From Bacteroidales bacterium (lineage in GTDB: Bacteria; Bacteroidota; Bacteroidia; Bacteroidales; WCHB1-69), in assembly GCA_012522535.1 (NCBI GenBank), contig JAAYKF010000181.1, positions 1-41,635 on the forward strand: a DNA stretch of 41,635 bases, in the 5' to 3' direction. A program made the translations under genes and the position numbers. Below the pieces are notes generated by a model that searched no databases, had not been told where the DNA came from, and worked only from the letters and a program-made list of their open reading frames with translations. Shown here piece by piece: positions 29,088 to 41,086 of this stretch (position 1 is its first letter; each line of letters begins with the position of its first letter).

Positions 29088-29145
29088 AACTTGGTACATT
29101 TTTTGTGGCAATTAAACACTGAAATACAATTACTCACAAAACAAT

Positions 29146-29158: not shown

Positions 29159-29680
29159 ATGAAAAAAATATTTTTAACAAGCATCATCGCAGTTTTTTTA
29201 AGCTTCGGACTTTTTGCCCAAAGATATGCCTATGTTGACACGCAGTATATCTTAGAAAACATGCCTGACTATGTGGGCTCGCAAGCCGAATTAGACAGAA
29301 TAGCCATTGAATGGCAAAAAGAGATAGAAGCAAAATTTGCCAATATCGATCAGCTTTATAAAAAATATCAAGCCGATGCACCACTTCTTCCAGAAGATAT
29401 GAAACAAAGACGAGAAGATGAAATAATTAATGCTGAAAAAGAGGCTAAAGATTTGCAAAAGAAAAGATTTGGTAACGATGGCGACTTATACAAAAAACGT
29501 GAAGAGCTTATGAAACCAATTCAAGACAGAGTTTTCAATGCCATTGAAGAGTTTTCAAGATCGAAAAACTACGCCTTCGTATTTGACAAGTCTGGTGCTT
29601 TAACCATTATTTATGCTGACCCGAAAAATGACATCAGCAACGACATAATGGATAAACTGGGAATTACACCCACCAATTAA
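29159..29680 (+). CDS. OmpH/Skp-family periplasmic chaperone, first copy
   Basis: 173 residues. Signal peptide 1-20 (GLFAQ), then the family opening RYAYVDTQYILENMPDY, a long charged helical hairpin (about 45-130; EIEAKFANIDQLYKKYQAD, REDEIINAEKEAKDLQKK) and the closing strand YAFVFDKSGALTIIYADP. Skp-like trimers hold unfolded outer-membrane proteins in the periplasm and pass them to BamA, whose gene is 71 bases upstream. A second copy follows at 29794. Confidence 0.92.
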   Translation: MKKIFLTSIIAVFLSFGLFAQRYAYVDTQYILENMPDYVGSQAELDRIAIEWQKEIEAKFANIDQLYKKYQADAPLLPEDMKQRREDEIINAEKEAKDLQKKRFGNDGDLYKKREELMKPIQDRVFNAIEEFSRSKNYAFVFDKSGALTIIYADPKNDISNDIMDKLGITPTN

Positions 29681-29793: not shown

Positions 29794-30306
29794 ATGAAAA
29801 GAACCTTAACTCTCGTTGCGATATTAGTATTGTTTTTTAGCACAAACACATTCGCACAAGGCAAAATAAAATTAGGACATGTGGATTCTATGGAGCTGTT
29901 GCAAGCTATGCCCGGTAGAGATTCAGCTGAAAAAGTATTGCAAGAGTATGCAAACTCATTGGAAAAACAAATTATAGCCATGCAAACAGAGCTGCAAAAC
30001 AAGTACAACGACTTTATGGACAATCAAGCTACTATGTCGCAACTAATTCAGCAAACAAAAGCTAAAGAATTGCAAGACTTACAGGCTAGAATAGAAGCTT
30101 TCCAAGTTTCGGCACAAAACGATTTGCAAGAAAAAGAAAGAGAACTTGTACAACCAATTATCGACAAAGCTAAAAAAGCCATAGAAGAAGTGGCTAAAGC
30201 AAATGGATATACATATATCTTCGATTCATCGGTGGGAGTGCTACTCCACTTCGAAGATAGTGATGACATAATGTCAATGGTGAAAAAGAAACTTAATATC
30301 AAATAA
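29794..30306 (+). CDS. OmpH/Skp-family periplasmic chaperone, second copy
   Basis: 170 residues. Signal peptide 1-22 (NTFAQ). It has the same layout as the preceding gene: IKLGHVDSMELLQAMPGRDSA, a long coiled-coil hairpin rich in Gln and Glu (LEKQIIAMQTELQNKYNDF; LQDLQARIEAFQVSAQN), then YTYIFDSSVGVLLHFEDSDD. A pair of OmpH genes after bamA is typical for Bacteroidota. It probably acts as an outer-membrane protein chaperone; the two copies may differ in clients. A strong terminator hairpin starts directly after the stop. Confidence 0.92.
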   Translation: MKRTLTLVAILVLFFSTNTFAQGKIKLGHVDSMELLQAMPGRDSAEKVLQEYANSLEKQIIAMQTELQNKYNDFMDNQATMSQLIQQTKAKELQDLQARIEAFQVSAQNDLQEKERELVQPIIDKAKKAIEEVAKANGYTYIFDSSVGVLLHFEDSDDIMSMVKKKLNIK

Positions 30307-39623: not shown

Positions 39624-39653
39624 AAAAATAACCCGGTTTCCCGGGTTATTTTT
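39624..39653 (-). terminator. Terminator of the third GldM-C-like gene
   Basis: 13-bp perfect stem (AAAAATAACCCGG / CCGGGTTATTTTT), loop GAAA on the minus strand, followed by a run of seven U in the minus-strand transcript. It is 8 bases past the stop at 39662. Confidence 0.88.
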
Positions 39654-39661
39654 GGTATTAA

Positions 39662-40078
39662 CTACTTTGTTGAATCTTGTTTTGGAAGCACTTTAAGCTT
39701 AATTGGTTCTAGCTTTATTGCTCTTGTATTCCTTACAGCTGGGCTAATTGCATAAATATCTACAATTGAAATTTCTTGTGGTTTTGTAATATTATTTAAA
39801 GCACGTATCATTTCAGGTGTAAACTTATCATCTTTAGATAAATATTTTTTACCTCCAATTAAAACTGAAAATTTTGATACTTTTTGTCCACCTTCAATTT
39901 CCAATGTTGAGTTTGGCGTTAATTTGCCCAACTCAAGTGTATTTGTTTTAGGATTAAATCCATCAACTACTATATTGTTTTCTTTTGCTTGAGGTTTTTT
40001 TTGTTGGAACTGAGCTTGACTTACAAAACTTGAAAGCATAAAAATGCTAACTGCGATTAAAACGATTGACTTTTTCAT
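39662..40078 (-). CDS. Small secreted protein resembling the C-terminal domain of GldM (copy 3)
   Basis: 138 residues. Signal peptide 1-22 (FVSQAQ). After a Lys/Gln-rich spacer comes one compact domain: LGKLTPNSTLEIEG, KFSVLIGGKKYLSKDDKFTPEMIRALNNI, VDIYAISP, then a final strand (LEPIKLKVLP). The order 'sF.v...g......s.kfT.eM..ai..i......i..I.a..p......l..i.l.V' is that of the last periplasmic domain of GldM/PorM, which touches the GldK/N ring in the type IX secretion machine, but here it stands alone. Assignment is by pattern, not by a search. It has a separate sigma-54-like promoter (40128-40143) and a strong terminator. Two paralogues lie upstream. Confidence 0.6.
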   Translation of the reverse strand: MKKSIVLIAVSIFMLSSFVSQAQFQQKKPQAKENNIVVDGFNPKTNTLELGKLTPNSTLEIEGGQKVSKFSVLIGGKKYLSKDDKFTPEMIRALNNITKPQEISIVDIYAISPAVRNTRAIKLEPIKLKVLPKQDSTK

Positions 40079-40127: not shown

Positions 40128-40143
40128 ACAAAGGTCGTGCCAA
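40128..40143 (-). promoter_or_regulatory. Sigma-54-type promoter of the third GldM-C-like gene
   Basis: On the minus strand TTGGCACG-ACCT-TTGT: the -24 element TGGCACG, four bases, then TTGT at -12 (consensus TTGC). The spacing fits sigma-54 (consensus TGGCACG-N4-TTGC) exactly. The start would be near 40116, with a leader of about 38 bases to the ATG at 40078. No TAnnTTTG box in the leader. Confidence 0.7.
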
Positions 40144-40191
40144 AGTATAAAACTATAATACTGATTGCACTTAAATAGAGTTTGAATAAAA

Positions 40192-40213
40192 AAAACTGCC
40201 TTTCGGCAGTTTT
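40192..40213 (-). terminator. Terminator of the second GldM-C-like gene
   Basis: 9-bp perfect stem (AAAACTGCC / GGCAGTTTT), loop GAAA, followed by a U-run (A-run 40188-40195 on the plus strand). It starts 4 bases after the stop at 40217. Confidence 0.88.
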
Positions 40214-40216
40214 AAA

Positions 40217-40597
40217 TTATTGTACTGTTATTGTAAACTCTTGGAGCCTTTCTTTCCTATCCGGATTGGCATTTGTGTGAGCCATAATATTTCTGAATGT
40301 TACTTTTGTTGGAAACTTTATCCCATTAATTGCATTCTTCATTTCCTGAGTTAGCTTTTTATTGTTTGATGTATAAACAACTACTCCACTACTTGATTTG
40401 AATGACATTTCGAATGAGCTTATTGTCTTTGCTCTGTCGGATATTACTAGTTCTCCTGCATTTACTACTTTTGATTTGGTCAGATTTCCAGATTTTGCTC
40501 CTGCAATTGTTACTTGGGTTGCTCTCGAAAACTGTGCAAACGATGTAAGACCAATTAACATTATACCCAAGAATATATAAAATGCTTTATTTTTCAT
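40217..40597 (-). CDS. Small secreted protein resembling the C-terminal domain of GldM (copy 2)
   Basis: 126 residues. Signal peptide 1-21 (LTSFAQ). Single domain with the same framework as its neighbours: VVNAGELVISDRAK, SSFEMSFKSSSG, KKLTQEMKNAINGI, FRNIMAHTN, and final strand LQEFTITVQ. Shared with the other two copies are the K-L/F-T-x-E/Q-M-x-x-A-I/L-N helix start and the preceding F strand. It lacks the Gln/Lys spacer of copy 3. The gene starts 20 bases after the stop of copy 1 and has no promoter of its own visible, so the two are cotranscribed. Similarity to GldM-C is by pattern only. Confidence 0.6.
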   Translation of the reverse strand: MKNKAFYIFLGIMLIGLTSFAQFSRATQVTIAGAKSGNLTKSKVVNAGELVISDRAKTISSFEMSFKSSSGVVVYTSNNKKLTQEMKNAINGIKFPTKVTFRNIMAHTNANPDRKERLQEFTITVQ

Positions 40598-40617
40598 ATC
40601 TTTAGATTTAAAGGATA

Positions 40618-41013
40618 TTAATTAGGGCTAACTTTGGTTCTAACTTCCTTGGGGTACACTGGATTACCATCTGGTTGGTTTTTGGGAACTGCTGTAATTT
40701 TGCAAACAATCAAATCTACTGTAGAACTTACTTCATTAATTGCATTTTTCATTTGTGGGGTTAATTTATCTGATGTAGAGCTAAATCTTTGATCTCCAAC
40801 AAATAAATCAAAACCAGTAATTTTATATCTACTGTCAGATATGGTAATTTTGCCAGCACTAACAAGTTCTGCTTTTGAGACACTCCTTTTGTTGGTACTA
40901 ACTCCAGGAATTGTAACTGTTGGATCTGCTGATTTCTTTTGTAACTGCCCGTAGCTTACAGCTGTTGTAAACATAAAAAGGCTTACTGCGATAAAAATGA
41001 TTGACTTTTTCAT
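40618..41013 (-). CDS. Small secreted protein resembling the C-terminal domain of GldM (copy 1)
   Basis: 131 residues from the ATG at 41013 (MKKSIIFIAVSLFMF), which gives a normal signal peptide ending VSYGQ; the frame opens further upstream at 41037 without improving it. Single domain: SVSKAELVSAGKITISD, GFDLFVGDQRFSSTSDKLTPQMKNAINEV, CKITAVPKNQPDGNP, final strand EVRTKVSP. 'vSKAELaa...v....' followed by an F.v strand, then 'T.qM..ai' is very close to the opening of GldM's last domain. First gene of a two-gene transcript from the sigma-54-type promoter at 41056-41071. Confidence 0.62.
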   Translation of the reverse strand: MKKSIIFIAVSLFMFTTAVSYGQLQKKSADPTVTIPGVSTNKRSVSKAELVSAGKITISDSRYKITGFDLFVGDQRFSSTSDKLTPQMKNAINEVSSTVDLIVCKITAVPKNQPDGNPVYPKEVRTKVSPN

Positions 41014-41055
41014 AATTCTAAATTTTAAATTAAACAAATTTCTGAAATTAACAAA

Positions 41056-41071
41056 ACAATTATCGTGCCAA
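41056..41071 (-). promoter_or_regulatory. Sigma-54-type promoter of GldM-C-like copies 1 and 2
   Basis: Minus strand: TTGGCACG-ATAA-TTGT, again TGGCACG, four bases and TTGT. It is 43 bases upstream of the ATG at 41013. It has the same spacing, and the same C-to-T change at -12, as the element at 40128-40143. The folB gene lies back-to-back, so an enhancer-binding site would have to lie within folB. Confidence 0.72.
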
Positions 41072-41086
41072 TGTACAAAATATTTC

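Follow-up and report, generated by a model that had tools for sequence, protein, structure and literature searches.

Putative sigma-54 promoters upstream of genes for exported GldM/PorM D4-like proteins in an uncultured Bacteroidales bacterium

Gene organization and predicted products

The window analysed here is the whole 41,635-nucleotide stretch of contig JAAYKF010000181.1 (Bacteroidales bacterium, assembly GCA_012522535.1). Three paralogous genes, referred to below as copies 1, 2 and 3, lie near its end on the minus strand. Copy 1 (40618-41013, 131 aa) is followed after 20 nt by copy 2 (40217-40597, 126 aa), with which it probably shares one transcript, and copy 3 (39662-40078, 138 aa) lies beyond. 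The start of copy 1 is taken as the ATG at 41013, and a longer frame beginning with TTG is probably spurious. A terminator scan identified a terminator-like hairpin after copy 2 (40192-40213, minus strand), and because this structure would isolate copy 3, the latter probably needs its own promoter. Copy 3 is itself followed by a hairpin and T-run (AATAACCCGG-GAAA-CCGGGTTATT; 39627-39650, minus strand), which was noticed by eye and does not appear in the terminator scan.

The 5' regions of copies 1 and 3 can be aligned from promoter to signal peptide, both included. Between the two copies the -24/-12 letters are identical, and the distance to the ATG has shifted by 7 nt. Since the alignment extends through both elements, the promoter of copy 3 was most likely duplicated together with the gene and then kept, rather than having arisen independently as had been proposed in the initial annotation.

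All three products begin with signal-peptide-like stretches. The Pfam model GldM_4th gives 18.3 and 17.4 bits for copies 1 and 2, below its cut-off of 24.6, and does not match copy 3, so that with these scores and lengths of only 126-138 aa the copies fall outside the GldM family. An AlphaFold2 model of copy 1 (pLDDT 78.6, pTM 0.67), the one copy to which the fold comparison was applied, was used in a Foldseek search whose top seven PDB matches are all PorM/GldM periplasmic domains (E 3e-5 to 2e-3), in agreement with the earlier description of the products as GldM-C-like. Based on this fold match, the copies would be exported PorM/GldM D4-like domains and not GldM itself. They resemble the C-terminal D4 domain of PorM/GldM, from the core complex of type IX secretion, in the predicted fold of copy 1 and in the weak GldM_4th scores of copies 1 and 2, but differ from PorM/GldM in that they stand alone below the Pfam cut-off, have a signal peptide in place of the membrane anchor and lack domains D1-D3. 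A full GldM (543 aa) is encoded on contig C175, followed by a gene resembling gldN.

In many genomes of the order, a profile built from the three copies matches the C-terminal portion of GldM-sized ORFs (about 540 aa), and in other families it also picks up stand-alone homologues of 125-140 aa. Run against PDB sequences, this profile gave a chance match only. Tandem stand-alone GldM-D4-like exported proteins occur in other families of the order (L161:1031-1833 and L163:1492-2589). The D4 domain of PorM binds PorN by itself (PMC5790014), and for this reason binding to the GldN/GldK ring is the likeliest way in which the copies would act. They may also have a role in tuning the type IX secretion ring during stress.

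The -24/-12 sites and their occurrence in the genome

Predicted sigma-54 promoters are located on the minus strand upstream of copy 1 (41056-41071; TTGGCACG-ATAA-TTGT, full site TTGGCACGATAATTGT), where the element would serve copies 1 and 2, and upstream of copy 3 (40128-40143; TTGGCACG-ACCT-TTGT, full site TTGGCACGACCTTTGT). Both had been reported in the initial annotation as TTGGCACG-N4-TTGT, and both are exact: each agrees with TTGGCACG-N4-TTGY at 12 of 12 fixed positions, with canonical spacing and the same T variant of the -12 element. The preferred form of that element is TTGC, and its replacement by TTGT at both copies counts against a sigma-54 reading. From the -12 T to the ATG there are 42 bases at copy 1 and 49 at copy 3 (ATG at 40078), and the predicted RNA starts are near 41044 and 40116.

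The genome-wide motif search that had been suggested was carried out over 2.45 Mb (194 contigs, 96% complete) and returned two exact matches to TTGGCACG-N4-TTGY, both of them before these paralogues; the reversed control gave 0. Only exact sites carry weight, since shuffles yield about as many matches (36) as the window does (41) once up to three mismatches are allowed. Given that 2.2% of strand positions qualify, a background taken from a 165-kb sample of genome stretches, the probability that two random sites would both be correctly oriented and 35-100 nt before a start is about 5e-4. The sigma-A box TAnnTTTG, found in 48 of 77 sampled genes with room upstream, is absent upstream of copy 1 and copy 3, and thus from all three window genes that have a sigma-54-like site (0/3; the third is skp). 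The SM5 box TAnnTTGY is likewise absent upstream of copy 3, and a single one (TATTTTGT; 41075-41082, minus strand) lies just upstream of the copy 1 sigma-54 site, 69 nt before the ATG.

A broader pattern, TTGGCA-N6-TTGY, has 43 matches in the genome, seven of which lie on the right strand 35-100 nt upstream of a start where 0.94 would be expected (p = 4e-5). These seven precede copy 1, copy 3, grpE and genes for an exported protein of about 176 aa (C76), a DUF4159 protein (C5), a lipoprotein (C63) and an exported protein of 437 aa (C173). Six of the seven have exported products when judged by a crude signal-peptide rule, which 39% of the sampled genes satisfy (p = 0.016). The p-values are to be read as guides, the set of sites having been judged partly by eye and the rules being rough. 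The orientation of the sites and a distance of 42-52 nt to the ATG recur at several other sites.

A weaker sigma-54-like site, TTGGTACATTTTTTGT (TTGGTAC-ATTTT-TTGT; 29091-29106, plus strand), is located 52 nt upstream of skp/ompH (29159-29680, plus strand), which encodes a Skp/OmpH-like periplasmic chaperone of 173 aa. The initial annotation did not include this site and assigned all other promoters of the window to the TAnnTTTG type, a generalization that is not quite right, as skp/ompH itself lacks TAnnTTTG. The case for TTGGTACATTTTTTGT is weakened by the finding that TTGGTA-N6-TTGY as a class is not enriched (18 matches versus 18 control matches). Within the same region a perfect TGACATTATGTCA palindrome (30264-30276) falls within the 3'-terminal part of the second ompH gene; no sigma-54 site was noted downstream of it, and it probably occurs there by chance.

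Close homologues of copy 1 were found neither among 60 relatives nor by a single-protein search of genome contigs, and a mixed alignment was too divergent for a site scan. The stand-alone homologues in other families have no canonical sigma-54 site; the closest approach is TTTGCACGATTTTTGT in L161, which departs from the motif by one letter, in the -24 GG.

Chaperone promoters, a shared palindrome and candidate activators

A count over 104 genomes of the family gave 175 occurrences of the exact motif, versus 37 for the reversed controls. Of the family sites examined, 43/75 are intergenic, and many run straight into groES, hsp20, dnaK, htpG, grpE or exported-protein genes, as named by sequence resemblance and not by a family scan of each. 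The window genome has degenerate sites at dnaK, grpE, hsp20 and htpG (TTGGCACAATGATTGA, TTGGCAAATTATTTGC, CTGGCACAGAGATTGA, TTGGTATAAGTTTTGC) and no sigma-54 site at groES. Counting skp, C76, C5, C63 and C173 as well, the sites stand before the kinds of genes that make up the sigma-54 proteostasis and envelope regulon of Bacteroidota.

This class of regulon is already known, and the GldM-D4-like genes are likely new members of it. A proposal that sigma-54 controls the bacterial exterior is older (PMC3162934), and a 2025 survey found predicted sigma-54 sites enriched at chaperone genes in Bacteroidota (PMC12316311). In a study that mapped 5' ends in Flavobacterium psychrophilum (PMC9723704), the -24/-12 motif (SM4) is described upstream of the genes for GroESL, Lon, DnaK, GrpE-DnaJ, HtpG, Skp and ClpB, where the skp promoter is thus a mapped one, and also upstream of the remFG-sprCDBF gliding operon, lipoproteins and exported proteins of unknown function; the site of the gliding operon was confirmed by mutagenesis. 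The genome considered here resembles that regulon in having sites at dnaK, grpE, htpG, skp, a lipoprotein gene and exported-protein genes. It differs in that groES lacks a site and in that the sites are predicted from sequence, whereas the RNA starts of F. psychrophilum were mapped, and GldM-D4-like genes are not among the SM4 promoters in the selection published there.

A palindrome, GACA-N3-TGTC, is common to the chaperone promoters of both the family and the window genome. Lying upstream of the -24 box, it is repeatedly 22, 43-44 and 63 nt from it, at intervals of about two helical turns, and at times more distant. It is present in 15/22 chaperone promoters, 0/13 others and about 0.1% of shuffles (Fisher p = 6e-5), a test that is not fully independent because some of these data had already served to discover the palindrome. 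The loci concerned are on contigs C41 (L148), C108 (L151), C24 (L147) and C111 (L153) of the window genome (G000), and at L069, L081, L119, L134, L136 and L137 in the family. GACA-N3-TGTC is therefore put forward as a candidate enhancer of the Bacteroidales chaperone regulon and may be new; the available portions of the F. psychrophilum report do not mention it (PMC9723704). It was not found within 220 nt of the copy 1 or copy 3 promoters, and allowing up to three mismatches gave only chance-level matches near the copies. An alternative enhancer common to copy 1, copy 3, skp, C76, C5 and C63 was sought and discarded, as no dyad rose above shuffles.

The initial annotation had pointed to rpoN and a Fis-type activator as genes to look for, and the genome has both. 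The rpoN gene, on contig C32, encodes all three sigma-54 Pfam domains, and a full sigma-54 interaction domain is found in two proteins, encoded on contigs C30 and C172. Three further PF00158 matches are weak, and their lengths suggest that they are different AAA+ proteins. The C30 protein, whose gene adjoins lptE, combines an AAA+ domain with a Fis helix-turn-helix (HTH) and is the only candidate with a GAFTGA-type loop, which leaves the genome with one canonical sigma-54 activator. The C172 protein (G000 C172:6411-7586, L062) consists of a receiver and an AAA+ domain with no DNA-binding domain, and has GSFTSA where GAFTGA is expected. FTSA replaces FTGA in 81/81 parsed short orthologues; L189-L197 and most of L241-L320 are orthologues of this protein. 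The C172 gene lies just upstream of genes resembling cydAB, and the closest named relative by this protein is the MAG Bacteroidales bacterium STCSWMC_32 (83% identity).

Chaperone promoters of G010, G111 and G112, in each of which one activator was found, still have GACA-N3-TGTC, and because the palindrome persists in such genomes its reader is most likely the Fis-type activator. At the copy promoters the C30 AAA-Fis protein is the favoured candidate, though not strongly so, and the C172 protein a doubtful one; that something else activates them is less probable again. The C172 protein was ranked lower because FTSA is uniform among its orthologues and because in G012 an enhancer-free site precedes an exported-protein gene where one activator only was found.

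Proposed regulation and alternative explanations

We regard both sites as functional sigma-54 promoters, with a probability of about 0.8, that would place the GldM/PorM-D4-like genes in the Bacteroidota regulon for proteostasis, the envelope and gliding/type IX secretion. This reading, which agrees on sigma-54 with that of the initial annotation, is based on an exact motif unique in the genome, the presence of rpoN and activator genes, the enrichment of sites in the promoter interval and the absence of TAnnTTTG, together with the family-wide excess of the motif, the chaperone sites, the gene classes of F. psychrophilum and the D4-like fold; motif, spacing, position and the logic of the regulon all fit. 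Sigma-54 RNA polymerase would wait at each promoter until an AAA+ activator remodels the complex, whereupon RNA would start at the predicted positions, one for copies 1 and 2 and the other for copy 3. The proteins would then have their function in the periplasm, where, like PorM-D4, they would most likely bind the GldN/GldK (PorN/PorK) ring. At the chaperone genes the AAA-Fis activator would probably be tethered by GACA-N3-TGTC, and at the copy promoters it would work from a greater distance or do without an enhancer close by. Tentatively, the regulon may thus comprise two promoter classes, one of GACA-N3-TGTC chaperone promoters read by the lptE-linked AAA-Fis protein, and one of enhancer-free promoters for exported proteins, including the GldM-D4-like ones, which would be produced during envelope stress and would bind and tune the type IX secretion ring.

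It is also conceivable, if unlikely, that the sites are sigma-54 promoters of which the enhancer-free ones are activated from solution by the C172 receiver-AAA protein, the AAA-Fis protein serving the chaperones. Such a division of labour would suit the restriction of the palindrome to chaperone promoters, and the F. psychrophilum sigma-54 promoters fall into separate co-expression clusters for which its authors suggest distinct activators (PMC9723704). Activators that lack an HTH and act from solution are known in FlgR and CtcC (PMC7175178, PMC7482065), and the C172 protein shares the domain composition of these Group 5 activators. It departs from their requirement for GAFTGA, however, and a role at the copy promoters would be a guess; the uniform FTSA of its orthologues and the G012 site argue against it. 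This receiver-AAA family scores as a sigma-54 activator and yet may not act on sigma-54 at all.

Another explanation, rather improbable, is that the sites are chance occurrences or relics and that sigma-A or another sigma factor uses an unrecognised promoter, which at copy 1 could be the TATTTTGT box. SM5 promoters do exist in F. psychrophilum, and one of them, that of the remFG-sprCDBF operon, stands alongside a sigma-54 site (PMC9723704); by analogy, copy 1 might have two promoters. Copy 3, however, lacks TAnnTTTG and TAnnTTGY alike, the genome's two exact sites both precede these paralogues, and the -24/-12 spacing was kept while the distance to the ATG shifted. Sigma-54 polymerase can sit on promoters without opening them, and an upstream enhancer that binds the activator is usual, though not universal, at sigma-54 promoters. 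The sites could hold the polymerase chiefly in an idle or blocking complex, repressing the genes rather than driving them, for which the lack of an enhancer within the flanks examined would speak. We consider this very improbable, as the orientation and the ATG distance recur at other sites and the search revealed no competing sigma-A box for such a complex to block.

If the preferred reading of both sites as functional sigma-54 promoters is correct, it widens the range of this regulon, mapped in one flavobacterium, to include an uncultured Bacteroidales family, and stand-alone PorM/GldM-D4-like proteins join its likely targets. Related bacteria use sigma-54 also for heat-shock chaperones and envelope-stress genes, and type IX secretion would thereby be tied to the response to protein-folding stress. 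The enhancer sequence put forward above and the candidate activators would also bear on a question left by the F. psychrophilum study, namely why its sigma-54 promoters form separate co-expression groups.

Further sigma-54-like sites in the window genome precede a lipoprotein-like gene (C156:15191, L216) and an exported-protein gene (C173:33591, L056). In addition, TTGGCTCGATTTTTGC occurs twice, about 100 bp apart, in noncoding DNA (L020/L021, G000 C178:19905-20022), where it points away from the nearest long ORFs.
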